From Candidatus Nanoarchaeia archaeon (GTDB lineage: Archaea > Nanobdellota > Nanobdellia > Woesearchaeales > UBA525), in assembly GCA_028279755.1 (NCBI GenBank), contig JANQNB010000013.1, positions 1-64,000 of the forward strand: a stretch of DNA of 64,000 nucleotides. Direction: 5' to 3'. Of the stretch, positions 2-47,166 are shown in pieces. The translations under genes were made by a program, and so were the position numbers. The notes under the pieces were generated by a model that did no database searches, had not been told where the DNA came from, and worked only from the letters and a program-made list of their open reading frames with translations. The stretch's first letter is position 1. Each line of letters starts with the position of its first letter.

Positions 2-3000
2 TACGTGAACGCGACTGGCAGTATTTTTGACACTAGCGGAAGAGTCTGCACTGCAGCGAACGGTCTCTGCTCAGGATCCTCTTCCGGTGGTGGCTGGACG
101 AACACGAGCACAGAAACGAGTACAGACCTCAACGTCAATCTCACAGCAGGGAATCTCAGTCTGGAGCACGAGAATGCAAGTATATGGATAGGCGGCGAGC
201 GCTTCCTCTTCATATCAGAAGGAACTTCTTTCAGTAACACCTTCATTGGCCGCAGTGCTGGCCCGACGAGTTATGTTGATAGCTTTGGCGGCAACACAGC
301 AGTGGGTTCTGAGGTGCTCTCCAATCTAGAGACTGGCGCGGTGCCTACACAGAACTCTCGGTACAATACAGGTGTCGGAACCAGTGCGCTGAAAGCTCTT
401 ATTAATGGGAGTGAGAACACTGCTGTTGGTTATGGAGCCTTGACTTCAGTTATTGCTTCTAACAGTAACACCGCAGTAGGGTATAGTGCTTTAACAAGCG
501 TCACTTCAGGAGAGGACAATGCTGCTGTTGGTGCTAGCGCGTTGTTCGACGTGAGTACAGGCTCGAGAAATATCGGTATCGGAAACAATGCTGGCGACGA
601 GATCAGCACAACGAGTGATAACATCGTTATCGGCCACGGTGCGTTGAGTACGGGTAGTGGTCATGCCTACAACACTATTCTCGGAACGTATTCAATGCAA
701 AATGTGAATACTGGGAATAGTAATATCGCTATTGGTGAACGAGCCATGCGTTATGGCGACACCCCATCCAATAATGTCGCCATCGGTTATTGGGCAGGGT
801 ATGGTACTGCTGGACAAACAGCCAACAACAATATTTTTGTCGGTTATCAGGCAGGAGATAGTGTCACGAACGGTTCCAACAATATCGTGATCGGCTATGA
901 TCAAGACTTACCTGATCCAGCTACAAATTATCACTTGAATATTGGTGGAACTATCTACGGAAACCTCAGCAGTGATAATATTGGTATTGGGACAAGCACT
1001 CCAACAGCAATACTCACTATTCAAGGGGATGGTTCAACAAACCTCACTGAATGGCTAAATAGCAGTGGTCATGTGCGACTTTATCTCAATGAGAACGGTG
1101 ATTTTATCACTGATCCGAGCGACACGAGCAGTATTATATTCGGGCTTGATGCGCTCTCTCTCGGTCCAACTCCTGGAAGGCATGTTGTGATTGGTACAAA
1201 TGCTCAAGCCTCAACAGGGCAGGACACGGTTGTTATTGGTTATCAAGCAGCAGGACAATCATCGTCTGTTTCTATTGGTCGAAGTGCGAGTGCTGGCTAC
1301 AATGTTGGTGTTGCAATTGGTTATGAGGCGACATTGACCGATACTGGAGGCATGGCTCTTGGTTATAGAGCTCAAGGTGGTGATTATGCAATAGCCATTG
1401 GAAACATGGCTGACGCGGACGAAACCAATTGCATCGCGCTCGGACGCGGGGCGAATTGCACGGTATCCAATCAACTCGCCCTTGGATCATCTCAGTATCC
1501 GATTAACCAGATCCGCTTCGATAACGGCGACGCAACAATCCACTTCAACACCACTGGCAGAACCTTGAAAGTCAATGGCAGCCTTAACGTGACTGCTGGC
1601 AACGACATCTGCATCGACGGCGGCGACTGCCTCAGCGACATCACTGGCTCTTCCAGCGCTGGCGGCTGGACGAATAACAGCTATCAAACGAGAACTGCCC
1701 TGAATGTGAATCTGAGCGCTGGCAATCTCACCTTGGAAGGATCTGGCCAGCATGTCTTCTTGCCTCTCGAGGACGATCCGACAACGCCGACATTGTCGTT
1801 TGGAGATTCGGACACTGGCATGTATGGGTTTGCTGATAATGTCATCCGCGTGTCCGTAGCCGGGACTGCGGAAGCTGCCTTCACCTCGGGCGCGTTCCAA
1901 GGTGTCAGCAATGGTCCAGCCATGTATTGGGAAGTGCCGAGCGCGACAAACCCGACTTTGCTTCCTTCTGCCGGAGATCCGGACACGGGGATTGGCCAGA
2001 ATGCTGCTGATAATATTTCCTTAATTACCGGTGGTGCCGAAGCCGTTAGAATCAATAGTGAGCAGAACATAGAATTCATGACAGGCAACCTCACCTTTGG
2101 TAACACCCAAGCTTTCATCTTCATGGGCACCGAGCGCTTCATCCACTCGTATGACAACGGGAGCAGCTTCCCGAATACCTTCGTGGGCAAGGGTGCCGGT
2201 TCGCTCACTATCGATGGCAGTTCATTAGGAGCGAACACAGGGATTGGCAACAACGTTCTCTCCTCGCTCACAGATGGAGAATACAATACGATGGTAGGTC
2301 ATCTTGTGGGTGAGGATCTGACGACTGGCACAGGGAACACAGGAATAGGCAATAGTGCATTTTTGCAAGCGATCTCAATTACCAATTCTGTTGCTCTGGG
2401 TTCTAATGCTTTATTTACTGTTGAGACGGGCACTGCGAATACTGCTCTTGGCTATCATGCCCTCCAGTACTTCGATGGGAAGAACTCCAACACGTTCGTC
2501 GGAAGTCAGGCTGGCCAGACACATAATGGCTCACGGAACACGGTTGTCGGCTCTCTCTCAATGTATCTCTCCTATGATGCGAATGATAACGTCGCTGTCG
2601 GTCAGCAAGCCATGCAGCACCTGAAGTATGGCGATGATAACGTTGCTGTTGGGCAGGATGCACTGAACGAGAACAATAACGGTTCAGGAAACACTGTGCT
2701 TGGCCATAGCGCTGGCTACGGTGTTGCAGGGAACAATTACGACGGCAATATCTTCGTCGGCTTCCAAGCTGGCAACAGTGTCACCACAGGCGACTATAAC
2801 ATCATCATTGGTTACGATGAGGACCTGCCAACAACTACGACGAGCAACCATCTCAACATTGGCGGTACTATCTTTGGCGATCTGAGCAGCGGTCAGGTCG
2901 GCATTGGAACCGCTTCACCGAACAACACCTTGACTGTGATTGGCACTATCAACGCCTCTGGCAACGTCTATGACAATGGCAATAGGGTGTGCACGGCCGC

Positions 3001-6000
3001 GAACGGTCTCTGTGGCGGCGCGAGCAGTGGCGGCGGCTGGACAAACACGAGCACGTGGACCTCAACTGATCTGAACGTGAACGTGACGACAGGGAATATG
3101 ACGATAGCGGGCGATCTCGGCATCGGGATCGAGGCGCCGGCAGGAAAGCTCCACATCTATGGCGGGCTCTCAGGCCAGGGACAGCTGGTTGTCGCGTCGA
3201 ACGCGAGCGATGAGCAGGTGAACATCGCATTGCTCAAGGATGCGACACGCGAATGGGCGCTCTACATTCCTGCGGCTGACAGTACCTTGCGGTTCTATAA
3301 TGAAGATCTCGATGAGGACGTCATGACAATCACAAACCAGACACGGGTCGGCATCGGGACGACCGAACCGAACAGCACCTTACATGTCGTCGGCACGATC
3401 AATGCGAGCGGCAATGTCTACGACAACTACGAACGCGTCTGCACCGCAAGCAACGGCCTCTGCGGCAGCAGCTCAAGCGCTGGCGGCTGGACGAACACGA
3501 GCACGACAACCTACACAGGATTGACCGTCAACATCACGAGTGATGATTCGAACAATATGCTGAACCTGAGAAACAGCTCAGGAACAGTATTAACGTATGT
3601 GGGCCCGGATGGAAATCTTGTGATCAGTGGAGACAATGCCGGAACAGACCTCATCCATGTTGACGGTGTTGCGAGCCAGACAGCAGATTATCTTCAGATT
3701 CAAGACAGTGGTGGAGGCAACGTTTTCACAATAGGCGCCACGGAGCGTGTCAGCATCGGAGACGGCGCAGGCAGCAGTGCAGACCTGAACATCGGTGGCG
3801 CGAGAGCAATCTACTTTGATGGTGGAGCGGCGACCGTCAGATCGAGTGCCGGATCGTTGAGCTTGCAGGGAAGCGATAGCACGTCAGAAATCCTGCTTAT
3901 CGGTTCAGAGATCCGCGTTGGAGGCGATGTCGGCGCCAAATTCAACATCATCGGCGACACAACAATCGGGTCAACTATCTTAGGATTGCAGCAAGGAAAT
4001 GCGAGTCAGACCTACATTGCCTTCGTCAACTCAACCGGATCCCAGATGTACAACCTCAATGAAAGAGGGCTTGGAATCGTCACGAGCGACAATGGGATCT
4101 TCAATCACACTATCTCCACAGATGTCGCAAGCCAGGCTCATGGCGATGGTGTCGGACTTGATTTCGTGTTCCAACGTATCAACGGCGTTGAGACTAGATA
4201 TGGCAACATCTACGTCGCTGGCGACAACATCTCTACCGACGATTCAAGCATGCACTTCTCGATTGTCGATGGAGGAACCATGGAGGAGCACATGGAGATC
4301 AACGGCAGCGGTGTCTACGTTGCTGGCAGTCATGTGTGTACAGCAAGCAACGGCCTCTGCGATGGAGGAAGTTCCGGCGGCGGCTGGACAAACAACAGCC
4401 AGAACACGAGTACAACATTGAACGTTGGGATAGGAACATCCAATCCAGTCAATGAATTAGAGGTCACAGGGTCAACTTCGAACAATGTACTAATGAGAGT
4501 TACTAATACGAATACCTTGGGAGAATCAGGCATTGTCCTTGGAGAAACAATTGACACTTCAACACCATTCTACATACAGCGTTACGGATCCACTGATGCT
4601 TCCCGGCCGAATGATGTAGAATTCGTCGCTGCAGGCTCAGGTGCAGATATCATCCTTGATCCGACTGATTACGTCGGCATCAATACAGTTGATCCGAATA
4701 ACACCTTGCATGTTGTTGGTGACATCAACGCCACCAACGGCGTGTGCGACGATGCAAGCGGCTACTGCCTGAGCGATATTAGCGGCCTTGGCGGCGGCAA
4801 CGTCTCTGGCACTGGCGGCGCGAACACGCGCGTCGCGTACTGGACCAGTGCGAGCGACATCACAGGTAATGCAGGCTTCACTTTCGACGGCGACAATCTC
4901 ACACTTCCCGGAGGCATTATCACTCCCACAGATATCGCCATCGGCCCCTCAGGAACGCATGCCGACGATCCCGGAACAGTCGCGATCGGCTGGAACGCGA
5001 ATGGCACTGGAACGAATGCTGTTGTCATTGGTCGTGACACTCGTGTGGTGAACGCGGGTGGGAGTGTCGCAGTCGGCTATCTCGCCGATGTCTCGAGTGC
5101 ATCCACAGGCACAGCCCTGGGACGCGATACTAGTGTTACAGCGAATTTTGGCACTGCTGTCGGTTCATATTCAACAGCTGTTGGCACAGCTGTCGCTTTA
5201 GGTTACAGTGTCAATGCGAGCGGCACTGGCACCGTTGCTATTGGTGATGGCACGAATGCGAGCGGTACGAACAGCATCGCGATTGGCACTGGTACCTGGG
5301 CAAATGATACCGAAGGCGTAGCTATAGGTGATGGAGCAGTAGCCTCTGAGCAGTACACAGTAGCTGTCGGCCCGAATTCTCTTGCGTCTGGCGGAGCGAG
5401 TTCAGTAGCTTTGGGAGCGTCATCGCGAGCAACCGGCTCAAGCTCTGTAGCTCTAGGACAATGGGCCAATTCTACCGGTACATCAGTCTCGGTCGGCGCC
5501 AATACACATGCAGCATCCGGGGACGTAGCACTCGGCTATGAAGCTGATGCACGTGATGACTCAGGATTCTCAATAGCCATCGGGTATCAAGCGGACTCCG
5601 CAACAGCAGGTGGTGGGATCGCAATTGGGTACTTAGCGCAAGGAGCTGCCCGAGGCATCGCTATTGGAGAAGAAGTCACTGGTGACCAATACGGCGTCAC
5701 GCTCGGCCAGCAAGCGACCGGCAATACTGGTTATGGGGTCACGATTGGTGCGCAAGCAACCGGCAGCAATTACGGTGTCGCGATTGGAAACTTGGCCTAT
5801 GCCGGCGCGCTCAGCTCGATCGCCCTCGGCGTCACCTCGAATGCTTCCAATCAGCGGGCTATGGCCCTCGGCGAGGACACAAGGGCAACAGCAGATTATG
5901 CTGTAGCACTCGGGTATGCAGCAAATGCCTCAGCAGCCTATGCAGTGGCGCTTGGCTATCAGGCAGAAGCCAGCGTTGCCAATCAGTTCATGGTGGGCAG

Positions 6001-9000
6001 TTCAGCGCAGAACCTGAACACGTACATCTACGGCGACATAAACGTGACGAGCAGTAATGACATCTGCATCGATGGTGGGAACTGTCTTTCCGCAGCTGGC
6101 AGCGGCAACATCACCGGCACTGCAGGAGCTGCCGACAGGGTCGCGTACTGGGACGGCAGCGGCAGTATCACTGGCAATTCAGGATTCACGTTCGACGGGG
6201 AGAACCTGACCTTGCCAGGCCATATCAACATGCCGAGCCTGTTCTACATCGGCAGCGGCGCGACTGTCACTGGTTCGAACAGCGTGGCGATCGGCAGCAT
6301 TTCCTCCGCCACCGGCAGCCAGAGCATCGCGCTTGGGTACAGGGCTTCAACAGCGAACAATTACGCGGTCGCAATCGGATATAACGCGTCGGTCGAGATC
6401 CAAGATGCTATCGCCATTGGTCAGCAATCACGCGTGTATTCCGAAGGATCCGGCGGTATCGCGATCGGCAGGGACGCGGTTGTGAACAGGACGACCGGCA
6501 TCTCGATCGGCATGAGCTCGGAAAGCAGGGACTTCTATGCCATCGCACTCGGCGACCGCGCCACTGCAATGGAACAACGTTCTGTCGCGATAGGATTGCA
6601 ATCCAATGCCAGCCACCTGGGCTCTGTGGCGATCGGCGCAGAAGCCACGACCACGAAAGACAATCAGCTCATGATCGGCAGTTCCGGGTACAATCTGAAC
6701 ACCTACATCTACGGCAACTTGAACGCAAGCGGCAAAATCCTGGTCGGTTCTGCATTAGGTGAAGAATCCTCGGCAGTTACAATTAGTGGTGACGGCGGCC
6801 TTGACCGGCTCCATGTCGGCACAGTAGACCGTATGATCGTGGGCGAGCAGGATCCAGTCGGCAGCACAAGCGGAAGGATGATCTCATCTTCAGGCGGTAT
6901 CCTGTTCCGGGCTGCAGAATCCGGCGCCTACGATTTCGTCATCCAGAACGATTCGACAGCGGGATTCGGGACGACCGATCCCAACGTGACATTGCACGTC
7001 GTCGGACGGATCAACGCCACGAGCGACGTGTGCGACGAAGGGAGTGGCAAGTGCCTGAGCACGACAGCCACTGATGAGGTTGGCACGCTTGTCAGCGGTA
7101 GGGCGTGCTACACTGTCGGCAGCGATGTCGATTGCGACGACGTATTCTATTGGGATGCGGGCCAGAACCAGCTCGGTGTCGGACTCAATCCGAGCTATAA
7201 CTTCCACATGAACGGCACTGCCAACATCAGCGGTGTCTACATCAACAGCACCGGCGCGGTCGGCATTGGGACAGCGAATCCGACAAAACTCCTCGAGCTT
7301 GCAGCAAACGATGTGCGATTGCTGTTCAACGACACGAGCGGGGTTGGTAATCCCAACACCACCTGGCAGATCACGATCAACGACGCGGATGGCGGAACCG
7401 CGAACAAGTTCGCGATCGATGACTTGACAAACGGCGTGACACCATTAATTATTGAGAACAACACACCATCAAACACACTCTACCTGGACAATAGTGGATA
7501 TGTCGGCATCGGGAACTCCAATCCTGCTGCGCCTCTCGATTTTGCATCAAGCGGGTATCCTCTCGATCTGGTCAACTTCGGCAGCCCTACCCGGGGCATT
7601 GGCGTATCTGCAGACGGCGGCCTCATCATCTGGGGGAATTCAAGCTCGACCTCTTCATTGGTTCTCAAGATGGATTCACGGACCGGAGGGAATCTTTTCA
7701 AGGTTAACAGCTCAGGCATCACTGTCGCTGGTATTAACTTCACTGCTGACACCGACACGTTCCACATCGATAGCACAAACGATCGTGTTGGCATCGGGAC
7801 GACGAATCCAGTGAGCGATCTGCATATCTACACCGCAAACGCACAACACAATGATTACGGATTGTTGCTTCAAATACCAACATCAGGGATTGATGGGTAT
7901 TACACAGGGATATATTTCAAAGGTGATACCGATACCAACGATGCAAGGAAGAAGGGTGCGATCCTTTTCGAGCGGCAAGCCTCGTATGGTCGAGGCAAGA
8001 TGCACTTCGCACTTGAGGGAAGTGCCGACGAGACGAATGCGAATGCTACTGACTCGGTGATGACGCTAAATTACGATGGCAAGGTTGGCATCGGGACGAT
8101 TAGCCCGCACGATGAGCTGACAGTAACAAATCCCGCGGGCTCTGCACCAGTCATCGAGATTAACCTGAACGACAGCAGCATCGGCGCAAGCCATGAGATC
8201 GGCTCGATCGAGTTCACAGGCGATCACGGTGGCTCTGGACTGGTCGGTGCAAAGATTGTAGCACATGCTGCTGGCACGTGGGGACAAGTGGCGAATGACG
8301 AGCCGACAGAAATCCAGTTCTGGACCTCTGAAGGCTCGGGCAACACTGTGACGCAGCGCATGGTGCTCAGCCAATACGGTGATCTTGGCATCGGGACTGA
8401 TAGTCCAACCGTGCTGATCCATGTGAACGAGACGACAGAATCAACTACTGGAATAGTCGGCCGTTTCGAGTCGAACGCGAGTTCCATCACCGGCATCTAC
8501 ATCGAGAATACTGATGCTACTGGCCGCGAATATGGTCTGATGACCACGACCGACAACCACGTCTACGACGCTGGCTTCATGATCTACGACGAGACAGGAA
8601 GCGCACGGCGCATCTTCATCAACGCGACAGGCGCGATCTCAATGGGCAATGTCGATCCTGCCGCACATCTCCATGTCGGGACTGGCTCGCCAGAGAACGC
8701 CACAGGCATGGGTGACATCTACGCCACAGACGACATCGAATATGATGGCAATCTCTATGGTTCTGGCGCAGACGTGGCAGAGATCACGCCAGCCTCTGAA
8801 ACAGGATTACAGCCTGGCACAGTGCTTGAGCTCGATCCAAACGTGCCTGGCAGCGTGCGCAGGAGTTCTGGGGCCTATTCGCGGCTCGTGGCCGGGATTG
8901 TGTCGACTGATCCGAGTATCATCCTCGCGAGCGACGAGCAAGGCGTGAAGATGGCGATCACTGGTCGCGTCCCGGTCAAGGCCAACAACGAGAACGGGCC

Positions 9001-9157
9001 GATTGCAATTGGTGATTTGTTGACAACATCATCGACACCAGGCGAGGCGATGCGGTGCAGCGAGCACTCGCTGTGCTTCGGCAGCATTGTCGGCAAGGCG
9101 ATGGAATCACTGCAGGGCGAGGCAGGAACAGTGACTGCGCTCGTCACATTAAGCTAA
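2..9157 (+). CDS. Giant modular surface adhesin, YadA-head / tail-fibre-like beta-roll repeats, 5'-truncated by window edge
   Basis: Open frame continues to the left edge (TAC before the listed GTG). Repeats of NTAVGYxAL / SVAIGxxAxAxG and VGIGTxxPNxTLHVVGxINA. Abundant N-x-S/T sequons. C-terminal DVAEITP...GRVPVKANNENGPIAIGDLLTTSSTPGEAM domain. Confidence 0.85.
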   Translation, partial: YVNATGSIFDTSGRVCTAANGLCSGSSSGGGWTNTSTETSTDLNVNLTAGNLSLEHENASIWIGGERFLFISEGTSFSNTFIGRSAGPTSYVDSFGGNTAVGSEVLSNLETGAVPTQNSRYNTGVGTSALKALINGSENTAVGYGALTSVIASNSNTAVGYSALTSVTSGEDNAAVGASALFDVSTGSRNIGIGNNAGDEISTTSDNIVIGHGALSTGSGHAYNTILGTYSMQNVNTGNSNIAIGERAMRYGDTPSNNVAIGYWAGYGTAGQTANNNIFVGYQAGDSVTNGSNNIVIGYDQDLPDPATNYHLNIGGTIYGNLSSDNIGIGTSTPTAILTIQGDGSTNLTEWLNSSGHVRLYLNENGDFITDPSDTSSIIFGLDALSLGPTPGRHVVIGTNAQASTGQDTVVIGYQAAGQSSSVSIGRSASAGYNVGVAIGYEATLTDTGGMALGYRAQGGDYAIAIGNMADADETNCIALGRGANCTVSNQLALGSSQYPINQIRFDNGDATIHFNTTGRTLKVNGSLNVTAGNDICIDGGDCLSDITGSSSAGGWTNNSYQTRTALNVNLSAGNLTLEGSGQHVFLPLEDDPTTPTLSFGDSDTGMYGFADNVIRVSVAGTAEAAFTSGAFQGVSNGPAMYWEVPSATNPTLLPSAGDPDTGIGQNAADNISLITGGAEAVRINSEQNIEFMTGNLTFGNTQAFIFMGTERFIHSYDNGSSFPNTFVGKGAGSLTIDGSSLGANTGIGNNVLSSLTDGEYNTMVGHLVGEDLTTGTGNTGIGNSAFLQAISITNSVALGSNALFTVETGTANTALGYHALQYFDGKNSNTFVGSQAGQTHNGSRNTVVGSLSMYLSYDANDNVAVGQQAMQHLKYGDDNVAVGQDALNENNNGSGNTVLGHSAGYGVAGNNYDGNIFVGFQAGNSVTTGDYNIIIGYDEDLPTTTTSNHLNIGGTIFGDLSSGQVGIGTASPNNTLTVIGTINASGNVYDNGNRVCTAANGLCGGASSGGGWTNTSTWTSTDLNVNVTTGNMTIAGDLGIGIEAPAGKLHIYGGLSGQGQLVVASNASDEQVNIALLKDATREWALYIPAADSTLRFYNEDLDEDVMTITNQTRVGIGTTEPNSTLHVVGTINASGNVYDNYERVCTASNGLCGSSSSAGGWTNTSTTTYTGLTVNITSDDSNNMLNLRNSSGTVLTYVGPDGNLVISGDNAGTDLIHVDGVASQTADYLQIQDSGGGNVFTIGATERVSIGDGAGSSADLNIGGARAIYFDGGAATVRSSAGSLSLQGSDSTSEILLIGSEIRVGGDVGAKFNIIGDTTIGSTILGLQQGNASQTYIAFVNSTGSQMYNLNERGLGIVTSDNGIFNHTISTDVASQAHGDGVGLDFVFQRINGVETRYGNIYVAGDNISTDDSSMHFSIVDGGTMEEHMEINGSGVYVAGSHVCTASNGLCDGGSSGGGWTNNSQNTSTTLNVGIGTSNPVNELEVTGSTSNNVLMRVTNTNTLGESGIVLGETIDTSTPFYIQRYGSTDASRPNDVEFVAAGSGADIILDPTDYVGINTVDPNNTLHVVGDINATNGVCDDASGYCLSDISGLGGGNVSGTGGANTRVAYWTSASDITGNAGFTFDGDNLTLPGGIITPTDIAIGPSGTHADDPGTVAIGWNANGTGTNAVVIGRDTRVVNAGGSVAVGYLADVSSASTGTALGRDTSVTANFGTAVGSYSTAVGTAVALGYSVNASGTGTVAIGDGTNASGTNSIAIGTGTWANDTEGVAIGDGAVASEQYTVAVGPNSLASGGASSVALGASSRATGSSSVALGQWANSTGTSVSVGANTHAASGDVALGYEADARDDSGFSIAIGYQADSATAGGGIAIGYLAQGAARGIAIGEEVTGDQYGVTLGQQATGNTGYGVTIGAQATGSNYGVAIGNLAYAGALSSIALGVTSNASNQRAMALGEDTRATADYAVALGYAANASAAYAVALGYQAEASVANQFMVGSSAQNLNTYIYGDINVTSSNDICIDGGNCLSAAGSGNITGTAGAADRVAYWDGSGSITGNSGFTFDGENLTLPGHINMPSLFYIGSGATVTGSNSVAIGSISSATGSQSIALGYRASTANNYAVAIGYNASVEIQDAIAIGQQSRVYSEGSGGIAIGRDAVVNRTTGISIGMSSESRDFYAIALGDRATAMEQRSVAIGLQSNASHLGSVAIGAEATTTKDNQLMIGSSGYNLNTYIYGNLNASGKILVGSALGEESSAVTISGDGGLDRLHVGTVDRMIVGEQDPVGSTSGRMISSSGGILFRAAESGAYDFVIQNDSTAGFGTTDPNVTLHVVGRINATSDVCDEGSGKCLSTTATDEVGTLVSGRACYTVGSDVDCDDVFYWDAGQNQLGVGLNPSYNFHMNGTANISGVYINSTGAVGIGTANPTKLLELAANDVRLLFNDTSGVGNPNTTWQITINDADGGTANKFAIDDLTNGVTPLIIENNTPSNTLYLDNSGYVGIGNSNPAAPLDFASSGYPLDLVNFGSPTRGIGVSADGGLIIWGNSSSTSSLVLKMDSRTGGNLFKVNSSGITVAGINFTADTDTFHIDSTNDRVGIGTTNPVSDLHIYTANAQHNDYGLLLQIPTSGIDGYYTGIYFKGDTDTNDARKKGAILFERQASYGRGKMHFALEGSADETNANATDSVMTLNYDGKVGIGTISPHDELTVTNPAGSAPVIEINLNDSSIGASHEIGSIEFTGDHGGSGLVGAKIVAHAAGTWGQVANDEPTEIQFWTSEGSGNTVTQRMVLSQYGDLGIGTDSPTVLIHVNETTESTTGIVGRFESNASSITGIYIENTDATGREYGLMTTTDNHVYDAGFMIYDETGSARRIFINATGAISMGNVDPAAHLHVGTGSPENATGMGDIYATDDIEYDGNLYGSGADVAEITPASETGLQPGTVLELDPNVPGSVRRSSGAYSRLVAGIVSTDPSIILASDEQGVKMAITGRVPVKANNENGPIAIGDLLTTSSTPGEAMRCSEHSLCFGSIVGKAMESLQGEAGTVTALVTLS

Positions 9158-9169
9158 AAGGTGAGAAAC

Positions 9170-10711
9170 ATGGGAAACATCATCATACCGAAGAAGACGA
9201 TCAGCAGCTTCCTGCTCGGCGCAGGGATCATCATCGCCGTGTTCTTCCTCATCGGCCTAGCGACAGCTACCTTCTACGCCAACGAGAACATCTCGATGGG
9301 CGGCTACACCATCACCGGGCTCGGCGCCCCCAGCGCAGGTTCTGACGTTGCAACCAAGAGCTATGTGGATGCTGCTGGTGGCGCCAGTTATGAAGGCTTG
9401 ACTGGCAGCTCCTACACCGCAGGGCAAGGAGGCGTCTTTGCCGCAAATGCCCTCTGCGACGCAGCGTACAGCGGCAGCCATGTCTGCACTGCCTCTGAGA
9501 TCCTGGAGATTGGTCTCACGAATATCTCAGAGGAGGCGTGGATTCTTGATGATAGCCAGTTCGCCAGTGGCGAGACTAATTGCTGGGGCTTCAAGTCAAC
9601 CTGTGACAGGATCGCTCTTGGCAACAGTGTCATCACTGCCAGGCTTGATATTGCTGTGCGTGATGATGGCCGTCCGATCGTCGCTGTGTGTGAGACTACC
9701 AACGACAACGTGACTGTTTTCAGTTGCAATGATACAGCATGCAACACATACTCAGAGTACCAGCTTGACTCAGGCAGCACCGATGCTGATGGGTGCAGTA
9801 TTGAGATCCGTTCTGATGGCAACCCTGTCGTGGCGTATGAGCTTGATGATGATGAAGTAAAGCTGTATGATTGCGACGACGAGAATTGCTCCACTGGGAA
9901 CATCCGGTCACTGGCCAGCACCGTAGCCCGATACCCTGACCTGGCTATTAACGATAGTGATGTCCCGTTTGTTGCATACGAGCGCCATAGTGGTGGCGGA
10001 TGCACGGCCGGTAACTGTCTCTACGTGTATCAGTGCGCGAATAGTGATTGTAGTTCTGGGAATGAAAGAGAGCTTTCAGACGCTAGTGCACGCGACACTC
10101 AGTATAATCCAGACATTGAAATTCAATCGAACGGCTATCCAATTGTAGCGTATTGGGATAACGATGCCACCACCGATCAATTGGTTATTAACGATTGCGG
10201 TGCTCGGGATTGTTCAACAGGCGGAAATGAGAAGCATACGGAGACTGCAACACAGGATTTTGCTGAGATGGAAATTATCCAGCAACGGCCATACTTCATG
10301 TTTGGGAACAGTGGAACAGGCACACAAATACGGAGTTGCGAAGACACTGACTGCGACGATGTGTATCACGCTAATCAAACAGTCACGTTGCACACTAGAT
10401 CCACTGACGCCCCTGACATAGATATGGCTGTTGGCCAGGAAGACAGGCTTGTCGTCGTCGACGGCACTGATGACGTCTACATGGTCTACGATTGCGACTC
10501 TGCTGACTGCGACAACATCAGGGAGTACAGAGTGGGCCTGATAGACACGCCTGCAATAGCGATCGACGAGACCTCTGGGCGCTGGATCATCGCATACGAC
10601 TATGGCCCTCCATCCCTCGTAGATCAACCAGCCATCGGCACGACAATCGGAGAAAGCGGATTCGGCACAAGCATTTGCCAGGACACGCACAAGTTCGCGT
10701 GCTGCAGCTAG
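9170..10711 (+). CDS. Membrane-anchored beta-propeller-like surface protein with tail-fibre-like N-terminal motif
   Basis: N-terminal TM segment (SFLLGAGIIIAVFFLIGLATATF), then GYTITGLGAPSAGSDVATKSYVDAA, then six repeated blades with [V/I]xxCxxxxC and DGxPxVAY motifs. ATG at 9170 with SD-like AAAGGTGAG. Confidence 0.75.
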   Translation: MGNIIIPKKTISSFLLGAGIIIAVFFLIGLATATFYANENISMGGYTITGLGAPSAGSDVATKSYVDAAGGASYEGLTGSSYTAGQGGVFAANALCDAAYSGSHVCTASEILEIGLTNISEEAWILDDSQFASGETNCWGFKSTCDRIALGNSVITARLDIAVRDDGRPIVAVCETTNDNVTVFSCNDTACNTYSEYQLDSGSTDADGCSIEIRSDGNPVVAYELDDDEVKLYDCDDENCSTGNIRSLASTVARYPDLAINDSDVPFVAYERHSGGGCTAGNCLYVYQCANSDCSSGNERELSDASARDTQYNPDIEIQSNGYPIVAYWDNDATTDQLVINDCGARDCSTGGNEKHTETATQDFAEMEIIQQRPYFMFGNSGTGTQIRSCEDTDCDDVYHANQTVTLHTRSTDAPDIDMAVGQEDRLVVVDGTDDVYMVYDCDSADCDNIREYRVGLIDTPAIAIDETSGRWIIAYDYGPPSLVDQPAIGTTIGESGFGTSICQDTHKFACCS

Positions 10712-10712
10712 A

Positions 10713-11189
10713 ATGAAACCTTTTTTTCTTCTCGGTTTGCTGCTCCTCACGAGCTGCGCCCAAGGGACCTGCGAGGTACTCGAGACCTACAAAGTGCGGG
10801 GAGAGTCCATGGCACCATTGCTGCAAGCTGGCGACACGATCGTCGTTGATATCAACCAGAGCTGCTTTAATATCAGCCGTGGCGATGTCGTTCTCTACGA
10901 CTTCGCTGGCAATGAGGCGCCGATCCTCAAGCGAGTGATGGCTGTCCCTGGCGATACCTGGCGCTTGAATGGCAGCAGCATCATTGTGAATGAGAAGATT
11001 CTTGTCAATAGCGAGGGCGTCCCGTACCGTGTGACGGATCAAGAGATGCTCCTTCTCTACACGAATGACTATCCAGTCCTGGGCGGAGGTCAGTATTTGC
11101 TCCTGGGCAACCAGCCAGGGGGTAGTATGGATGCCACCCAGTTCGGCTTGATACATCGTAGTGATATTCTCGGGAAACTTTATAAATGA
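10713..11189 (+). CDS. S26 (type I) signal peptidase-like protein with lipobox-type N-terminus
   Basis: GESMAPLL (Ser box), ILKRVMAVPGDTW (Lys box), YLLLGNQPGGSMDATQFGLI (box E-like). N-terminus MKPFFLLGLLLLTSC. Confidence 0.75.
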   Translation: MKPFFLLGLLLLTSCAQGTCEVLETYKVRGESMAPLLQAGDTIVVDINQSCFNISRGDVVLYDFAGNEAPILKRVMAVPGDTWRLNGSSIIVNEKILVNSEGVPYRVTDQEMLLLYTNDYPVLGGGQYLLLGNQPGGSMDATQFGLIHRSDILGKLYK

Positions 11190-11230: not shown

Positions 11231-11755
11231 ATAGCGACGCCTGAAAACATCAAAAGTAGTGAAAAAAACACATTTGATAGTTCTCAAGTAGATGACAAAC
11301 TCGCAAAACTACGCGAAGAGTTGGATTGGCTGAAACAACGCTTCCACGCGTCAGACCACGATCTCCTGGAAGCGCTCGGACATCCGCCCTTGGGCGAGAC
11401 CGTGCCATTGCAGATCTTCGCTGAAGGCCTCGGCATTCTGGAAGCGCTCGTTCTCCATCTTGTCAAGCAGGGGAAACATCCTGGCGAGGTCGCCGCATTC
11501 CTGAATCGACAGTATTCAACCGTCGCGAACACGCTGCGAAAAGCGAAAAGCAAAGAGCGGCAGCCTGCGCCAGAGGATGTCCCGCAGCTCCGAGTCCCTG
11601 TCACCATCTTCCGCGACCGCCTCAACGCGCCATTGCAGGCGCTGGTCGCGTATCTGCGAGAGCACGAGGGCATGCGCTTCACTGACATCGCACGCGCACT
11701 CAATCGCGATCCGAGAAACATCAACGCAACGTACAGGCAAGTGATGAGAAGCTAG
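11231..11755 (+). CDS. DNA-binding protein with two sigma-region-4-like HTH motifs (start uncertain: frame open from 11231, TTG at 11321)
   Basis: HPGEVAAFLNRQYSTVANTLRKAK and MRFTDIARALNRDPRNINATYRQVM look like two duplicated HTHs. The in-frame, protein-like extension upstream of 11321 lacks ATG. Confidence 0.6.
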   Translation: MATPENIKSSEKNTFDSSQVDDKLAKLREELDWLKQRFHASDHDLLEALGHPPLGETVPLQIFAEGLGILEALVLHLVKQGKHPGEVAAFLNRQYSTVANTLRKAKSKERQPAPEDVPQLRVPVTIFRDRLNAPLQALVAYLREHEGMRFTDIARALNRDPRNINATYRQVMRS

Positions 11756-46059: not shown

Positions 46060-47166
46060 TCACTTACGCTTCCGTCGCTCCGCCTTATGCAAGAAGATGC
46101 CGATAGCTGTAACGATGATGATGAGCACGACGATGACGATGCCCAGCTGCGTGTAACGCTGCGCGCTCGGGCCTGGCTCGTCCTGCTTGATCCGCGCTTT
46201 GAGCAGGACCTGCTGCGCGTCCGCCTTGCTGCGAAGCGTGAGCAGGAAACCGTGTTCGCCTTCTGCGTCGTCGTTAGCATAGAGGACGATCTCGCCTTCG
46301 CGGCTCTCGCCCGCCGGCACGACGATCAAGGAGCGCGGCCTGATCTCATAATTGCCCCATTCCTCAGTGCCTTCGATGGTGAGCACGTAAGCTTGTCCAT
46401 ACGGCTCTGCATTCACGATCGTGAACGGGTAGACGCCGCCATTCTCCTTGTCCACGTCCTGGATGTCGAGGATGTTGATGATGCTCTTGAAGTCTGGCAG
46501 GCCTTGCTCGCACATCCCTGAGCTGACCGCTCCCATCTTTGTCGGGATGTAGAAGAATTCCTGCATGCCAGGGCCAGCCGGGAATTCGACGAAGAGGACG
46601 ACGTCGTAGTCTTTGGCTCGCACGCAGTTCGGCAGGCGCATGTAGAAGACATAGCGTCCTTGCTCTCCTGCTTCGATGCGGTCGACGTATTCCTTCATCT
46701 CAAGGCCGAGTTCCGGCACTTGGACAGTGAGCTGCACGTTTCGGAGCTCGAATGCGCGATAGTTGGTGAGTGTTGCGGTGACAGTGAACGAGCGGCCTTC
46801 CATGACACCTTGCGGATCGATGTCGATCCTGTCGACGATGAGGTCGCAGTCGTCGCCGACGTTGTTCTGGTTCTGGTCAGTCTGTGTCGGGTTCGGCACG
46901 CCGATGCAGTTGTCGACGATGTCTGGCGCCTTGTCGCAGTCAAGGTCTTCCAGCAGGCCTTTGCCTGTACTGATGAAGCAGCCGCCAAAGGTCTGGCGCG
47001 GCGCGAACGGCGGGGTTGCGTGGCTCTTGTTGTTCTCTTCCCAGTCTTCCTTCCAGTCGATCCAGTCGTCGCCACCGTATGGGCCGTAATAATCGTGGTA
47101 GACGTCAGCCAATGCCATGGGCGCGCTGAGCGTCAGAATGATGAGGAATGTAAGGAAGGCCTTCAT
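46060..47166 (-). CDS. Paralog of 44431-45516: TSP3-like motif, C-terminal TM
   Basis: DLDCDKAPDIVDNCIGVPNPTQTDQNQNNVGDDCD; C-terminal TM QLGIVIVVLIIIVTAIGIFLHKAERRKRK. Confidence 0.75.
   Translation of the reverse strand: MKAFLTFLIILTLSAPMALADVYHDYYGPYGGDDWIDWKEDWEENNKSHATPPFAPRQTFGGCFISTGKGLLEDLDCDKAPDIVDNCIGVPNPTQTDQNQNNVGDDCDLIVDRIDIDPQGVMEGRSFTVTATLTNYRAFELRNVQLTVQVPELGLEMKEYVDRIEAGEQGRYVFYMRLPNCVRAKDYDVVLFVEFPAGPGMQEFFYIPTKMGAVSSGMCEQGLPDFKSIINILDIQDVDKENGGVYPFTIVNAEPYGQAYVLTIEGTEEWGNYEIRPRSLIVVPAGESREGEIVLYANDDAEGEHGFLLTLRSKADAQQVLLKARIKQDEPGPSAQRYTQLGIVIVVLIIIVTAIGIFLHKAERRKRK

Follow-up and report, generated by a model that had tools for sequence, protein, structure and literature searches.

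The first three genes of an archaeal contig probably form a surface-fibre locus, in which a giant fibre protein with YadA-type head repeats and a phage-type C-terminal module is followed by a short fibre with a tail-fibre collar and a propeller, and by a bacterial-type signal peptidase. The fibre system is well supported, and we hold the reading of the locus as a whole (fibres, base, propeller tip and accessory peptidase) with somewhat better than even confidence. An earlier, sequence-only reading had proposed an archaeal adhesin system of three genes, with a peptidase serving two exported partners. Its archaeal fibre system stands, as do its gene layout and gene families; the three genes do not recur together as a unit in relatives, and the strict trio reduces to a recurrent peptidase-fibre pairing within a broader modular fibre system. 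Its length for gene 1, the hallmarks that it assigned to both fibre genes and its wording of the membrane anchor are corrected below.

Sequence and scope

The window is the whole 64,000-nucleotide stretch analysed here and lies at the start of contig C13 of genome G000 (DPANN, Woesearchaeales), which comprises 24 contigs and 1.49 Mb and is 93.7% complete. C numbers denote contigs and L numbers loci. Gene anatomy, protein families, the folds of the C-terminal module and of the propeller, the Ser/Lys pair of the peptidase, its adjacency to fibre genes and the upstream partner of the giant fibres were all obtained by computation. Coordinates of the features are collected in Table 1.

Table 1. Features of the fibre locus, in positions of the window.
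Feature	Position	Strand	Basis
Gene 1, giant modular fibre protein, 3051 codons, 5' end cut by contig start	2-9157	+	ORF open at 5' end; YadA_head; tail spike / virion structural PHROGs
Long-type head repeats (NTAVGYGAL...), two clusters, 296-899 and 1184-1406	296-1406	+	PHROG tail spike match, best stretch aa 136-236
Long-type head repeats, third cluster	2174-2762	+	Repeat reading
VGIGT..P-type repeats, scattered, 9 counted, with CTAANGLC and GGWTNTS linkers	2897-8410	+	
Classical YadA-type head repeats (SVAIG...), clusters 4934-5960 and 6284-6641	4934-6641	+	Pfam YadA_head
C-terminal phage decoration / phi29-gp12-like module, opening with DVAE at 8771-8782	8771-9154	+	Profile, AF2 model, Foldseek
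Gene 2, short fibre with collar and propeller, 513 aa, ATG at 9170, GGTGA upstream	9170-10711	+	
Hydrophobic N-terminal segment, about residues 13-34 (signal peptide or membrane anchor)	9206-9271	+	Helix 9-34 in low-confidence model
Tail-fibre collar, GGYTITGLGAPSAGSDVATKSYVDA	9299-9373	+	PHROG tail fibre families, E=6e-6
Stretch like tip of G274 fibre, possible first half of split lectin-like domain	9428-9613	+	41-43% identity, sequence only
Beta-propeller, seven repeats, six with CxxxxC	9632-10609	+	L030 relatives, AF2 model, Foldseek
Gene 3, bacterial-type S26 signal peptidase with lipobox; Cys15 at 10755, Ser32 at 10806, Lys73 at 10929	10713-11189	+	
Small two-part helix-turn-helix protein	11321-11755	+	Directly 3' of gene 3; outside core claim

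Gene layout and the giant fibre

The three open reading frames follow one another on one strand with gaps of 12 and 1 nt, exactly as first described. The window and C13 have their first base in common, and gene 1 is therefore truncated at its 5' end and has no start codon in the contig; the 3050 residues once given for its product are neither the full length nor inclusive of the N-terminus. Three kinds of repeat make up the part that is present, namely long NTAVG-type heads, classical YadA heads, and VGIGT..P repeats with their linkers. Pfam YadA_head matches nine separate stretches (E=1.5e-32), far beyond chance. SVAIG heads and a GxITGL...ATKSYVDA collar had been read as hallmarks common to genes 1 and 2; the heads occur in gene 1 only and the collar in gene 2 only.

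A phage-type module at the C-terminus of gene 1

The last ~130 residues of the gene 1 product are a separate module, and the D-x-A-E with which it begins is invariant in an alignment of 16 members. Searched against the PDB, the 16-member profile matched chains of phi29 gp12 weakly (6qz9, 3suc and 3gqh, E=0.002-0.02), and these were the sole matches under E=0.1; a two-sequence profile of the C-terminus gave zero matches there. The profile alignment sets D-x-A-E opposite the D-F-A-E of gp12, where 3gqh starts. Pfam matches among the 16 members were all weak (Peptidase_G2 in three, best E=0.002; XM1 minor capsid in five). The AF2 model of the C-terminal piece is good across most of residues 42-164, and Foldseek put decoration-type proteins at the top (Pam3, BB1, XM1 and gp8.5; best E about 0.001, none lower), with gp12 (3gqh) at rank 34 (Foldseek probability 0.98, E=0.054). 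Decoration proteins are trimeric. Profile, model and Foldseek together predict for this end of gene 1 the fold of phage trimeric proteins, and a trimeric or surface prediction there was one of the tests that the earlier reading had set for itself. By analogy with those proteins the module would form a trimer.

The module was found in 31 of 338 genomes of the order, in many bacterial phyla and in viral contigs, where a pattern-based profile search of IMG/VR gave 245 candidates. A tblastn search of the C-terminal domain against an annotated phage collection, which differs from the IMG/VR search in query, method and collection, returned no match at 1e-3. Most archaeal, bacterial and viral members carry the module at the protein C-terminus and keep D-x-[AS]-E. 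The archaeal fibre gene on contig C10 of genome G156 (L081, L082) is extremely long, with 8127 codons in one open frame, and ends in the same module.

It is possible that the module cleaves itself at D-x-A-E. We give equal weight to the alternative that it is a permanent trimer cap, comparable to capsid cement and never cleaved. Such a cap would suit the fold search, in which capsid decoration proteins are the best matches and gp12 stands far lower, and it would suit the residue before the Asp: gp12 has Ser before its scissile Asp, where gene 1 and most viral members have Ala and the archaeal relatives have Ala, Gly, Ser, Val or Cys. The retention of D-x-[AS]-E in all three groups of members argues for cleavage, as does the position of the motif at the domain start as in phi29 gp12, whose mature form gp12*, a trimer, has been modelled to residue 691 (PMC6542822). 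The crystal 3suc, titled a pre-mature form of gp12, has Q where the wild type has E, and this too counts against a permanent cap.

The collar and propeller fibre

The hydrophobic segment of gene 2 fits the membrane anchor proposed for it from the start, and a cleavable signal peptide is an equally good fit. Its collar also has a weak match to the structure of tail fiber gp9 (E=0.0027). The AF2 model of the gene 2 product (mean pLDDT 56.8) is usable in the disulphide-rich propeller only, and there the best Foldseek matches are the Photorhabdus PLL/PHL lectins (E=5.7e-9, TM 0.67 by target length, about 14% identity). Glycan binding is a probable function of this propeller tip. The last residues of the product resemble the ends of ..WCCSD tips and the stretch before the propeller resembles the G274 tip, so that the two flanks may belong to one lectin-like domain interrupted by the propeller, an arrangement read from sequence that the AF2 model does not confirm. 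A comparable order is seen in G131, in which a fibre with the same C-terminal module is followed by a propeller-like protein with hydrophobic ends and then by a collar fibre, and similar propellers lie inside GIGT fibres in G284.

A lipobox signal peptidase behind fibre genes

Gene 3 is an S26 peptidase with the lipobox LTSC, as had been recognised from the letters alone; it scores 77.7 bits with TIGR02227 (cut-off 47) and 70.8 with PF10502 (cut-off 22.9). Ser32, Lys73 and Cys15 are conserved among its family relatives, and the Ser/Lys pair is invariant. Gene 3 and its relatives have a short hydrophobic N-terminus ending in the lipobox Cys, at which lipid attachment is predicted. A view based on PF00717, that gene 3 is the sole S24/S26 enzyme of the genome, was dropped when TIGR02228 revealed three more, all archaeal-type with Ser/His. 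One of these Ser/His enzymes (L182 450-1076) has a lipobox-like N-terminus (LLIAC), and a lipid-anchored S26 may therefore not be unique to gene 3.

The family is rare: the 353 genomes of the order contain four confident members (G000, G009, G031 and G207), and a phylum-wide sample added none; a weak match in G178, considered as a fifth, was rejected as Ser/His. Two of the four come from one family of genomes. The peptidase was not found in five sampled, incomplete genomes of congeners, and beside two viral peptidase matches (24-30% identity) no fibre gene was recognised.

In three of the four members (G000, G009 and G207) a fibre-type gene lies directly upstream, with different tips. The G207 peptidase begins about 40 nt 3' of a fibre gene with a collar and a Gly-rich tip, and that of G009 stands behind a Gly-rich C-terminal scrap, which is what the contig end leaves of the preceding protein. 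No giant YadA fibre was seen beside the G207 peptidase, and in G009 the contig ends. The peptidase is thus tied to the fibre-type gene directly upstream and not to the YadA giant as such, and of the synteny proposed for the trio the pairing with a fibre-type gene recurs and the three-gene unit does not. This adjacency, resting on four genes, is hard to explain by chance.

A smaller, still appreciable likelihood belongs to the explanation that gene 3 encodes an ordinary, surplus signal peptidase that came from bacteria, stands behind fibre genes by chance and has no special substrate. It would account for the G031 copy, which has no fibre neighbour, for the small size of the family, and for the absence of this peptidase type beside the paralogous fibre loci of G000, whose fibres need export too; the lipobox-like N-terminus of a Ser/His enzyme in the same genome is also in its favour. 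Against it stands the position of three of four members behind fibre genes that differ in tip type, in two families of genomes. It is plausible that gene 3 is a dedicated enzyme for its fibre partners, and it may process the products of both gene 1 and gene 2.

Paralogous giant fibres and their membrane partner

G000 carries a complete giant-fibre paralogue on C4 (2054 aa, with a signal-peptide-like N-terminus); C20 and C21 each contain the N-terminal part of a further one, and relatives have full-length copies. Behind the giant fibre of C4 stand several shorter fibre genes whose products have LVIVD-repeat propellers and cysteine-rich tips. The complete paralogues begin with signal peptides, and the adjoining gene upstream of them encodes a membrane protein that has a SHOCT-like N-terminus, a single hydrophobic segment and ..GNLYLxG.. 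repeats. This partner lies upstream of a giant fibre at eight loci in four genomes (three in G000, three in G006, one each in G001 and G156), and it overlaps or nearly touches the fibre gene except in G156, where two short ORFs intervene. For gene 1 of the window the corresponding position is beyond the contig edge. The membrane protein is a steadier partner of the giant fibre than the peptidase is, and it is the best candidate for, and most likely is, the base of the fibre. In G274 a protein upstream of a fibre gene (L031 3597-4361) has a pilin-like N-terminus (AQSAIEFIVLASF) and ..GNFYLKG repeats resembling those of the membrane partner, and could be a pilin-type fibre base.

C20 and C21 each break off within a giant fibre gene of their own, at one and the same 99-bp sequence (L173 7305-7403; L172 12353-12451), which is likely an assembly break or a recombination site. 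Since these contigs, like C13, end inside giant fibre genes, breaks in such repetitive genes are a pattern in G000. The half that gene 1 lacks may lie on one of the two; neither was found to overlap the start of C13.

Genomic neighbourhood

The annotated neighbours of the locus are cellular (an MscS channel, acetate kinase, phosphotransacetylase, pyrimidine genes and carbamoyl-phosphate synthase), and further neighbours include a weak match to an archaeal STT3-type oligosaccharyl transferase and sulfhydrogenase-like subunits. A putative S-layer protein of the NCBIfam PACE-CTERM type is weakly matched at 46060-47166 of the window (E=3e-13, under the cut-off). No pilus gene was recognised beside the locus, and no reverse transcriptase, a sign of a diversity-generating element, was found in the genome.

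The repeats, the collar and the C-terminal module are common to phage tail fibres, and the locus might on that ground be a provirus remnant whose genes encode virion tail fibres and not cell-surface proteins. We consider this very improbable, given the cellular neighbours, the absence of any recognised virion or packaging gene (0 viral among 20 neighbouring proteins scanned, the 5' side being beyond the contig), and the giant-fibre paralogues, which have signal peptides and adjoin cellular genes such as the ribosomal proteins on C21. That gene 1 is a true trimeric autotransporter (type Vc), acquired by bacterial transfer or misbinned, is scarcely credible: its YadA heads and a weak NCBIfam YadA match (59 bits; cut-off 750) speak for it, and it is contradicted by the C-terminus, where Pfam finds no YadA anchor family up to E=1 and a module of another kind is present, as well as by the archaeal context of the contig and the archaeal-type ribosomal proteins beside a paralogue. 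The archaeal surface-fibre system first proposed is the reading that we retain, built on tail-fibre logic and without an autotransporter barrel.

The helix-turn-helix protein behind gene 3 is possibly a local fibre regulator. Relatives of it are encoded just upstream of the membrane partner in G156 (L082 16906-17196) and just upstream of a fibre gene in G050 (L036, about 7513-7740).

Proposed mechanism

From these computed features we infer the following mechanism, with a role in attachment to a partner cell. The locus would be one of several surface-fibre loci of this Woesearchaeales archaeon. Gene 1 and its paralogues would encode very long, Sec-exported fibres of head and stalk repeats, with the membrane protein from the adjoining upstream gene of the paralogous loci as their most likely base. 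The C-terminal module would nucleate the trimer, and its release by self-cleavage at D-x-A-E may follow. Gene 2 would supply a short exported fibre, membrane-held or released, whose collar carries a probably glycan-binding propeller tip. Gene 3 would act as an accessory, lipid-anchored signal peptidase of bacterial type, most likely trimming the adjacent fibre protein at its signal or anchor segment on the outer face. A general form of this scheme, in which DPANN archaea use phage-fibre assembly logic for attachment, with Sec-exported giants, a self-cleaving phi29-type chaperone, exchangeable glycan-binding tips and, in some lineages, maturation of the tip fibre by a dedicated, lipid-anchored signal peptidase of bacterial type, is speculative and rather unlikely to hold in every part.

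For the way in which DPANN archaea grip their partner cells, a recurrent modular fibre system with phage-type parts provides named candidates. It suggests how a cell that has no outer membrane could display YadA-type heads, with another kind of module at the C-terminus and, probably, a base protein in the membrane. The pairing of peptidase and fibre offers a small case, open to testing, in which an accessory enzyme of bacterial type travels together with fibre genes. We found no description of such a fibre system in the open-licence literature.

Comparison with known systems

The evidence suggests that these archaea make attachment fibres out of phage-style parts, and not by the autotransporter design of bacteria. 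Like YadA and other type Vc adhesins, gene 1 encodes a surface fibre that is repetitive, very long and set with YadA head repeats; unlike them it has no beta-barrel anchor, ends in a phage decoration/gp12-like module and belongs to an archaeal host. That module shares its C-terminal position and a D-x-A-E at the domain start with the C-terminal domain (Peptidase_G2) of the phi29 gp12 pre-neck appendage, and its predicted fold may be the same; it differs in being shorter, in its Ala for Ser before the Asp, in the weakness of the sequence match and in being part of a cellular protein where gp12 is a virion protein. Phage decoration proteins (XM1 gp53, Pam3 and the base of phi29 gp8.5) have the fold predicted for the module, which in gene 1 is the C-terminal domain of a fibre and not a capsid protein.

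With bacterial signal peptidase I (S26; SpsB, SipA, LepB) gene 3 has in common the Ser/Lys pair, the S26 boxes and a score above the TIGR02227 cut-off, but a lipobox appears to replace the usual transmembrane anchor, and the enzyme is archaeal, occurs beside Ser/His enzymes and lies behind fibre genes. The gene 2 propeller has the predicted seven-bladed fold of the Photorhabdus PLL/PHL lectins; it is distant from them in sequence, has CxxxxC in most repeats and is fused to a tail-fibre collar. Loci of type IV pili and coiled-coil proteins resembling viral attachment proteins have been described in DPANN archaea, including Woesearchaeota (PMC11291902). Those loci and ours alike encode DPANN surface proteins that resemble viral attachment fibres, with coiled-coil proteins beside pilus genes there and YadA/GIGT fibres with an S26 peptidase here.
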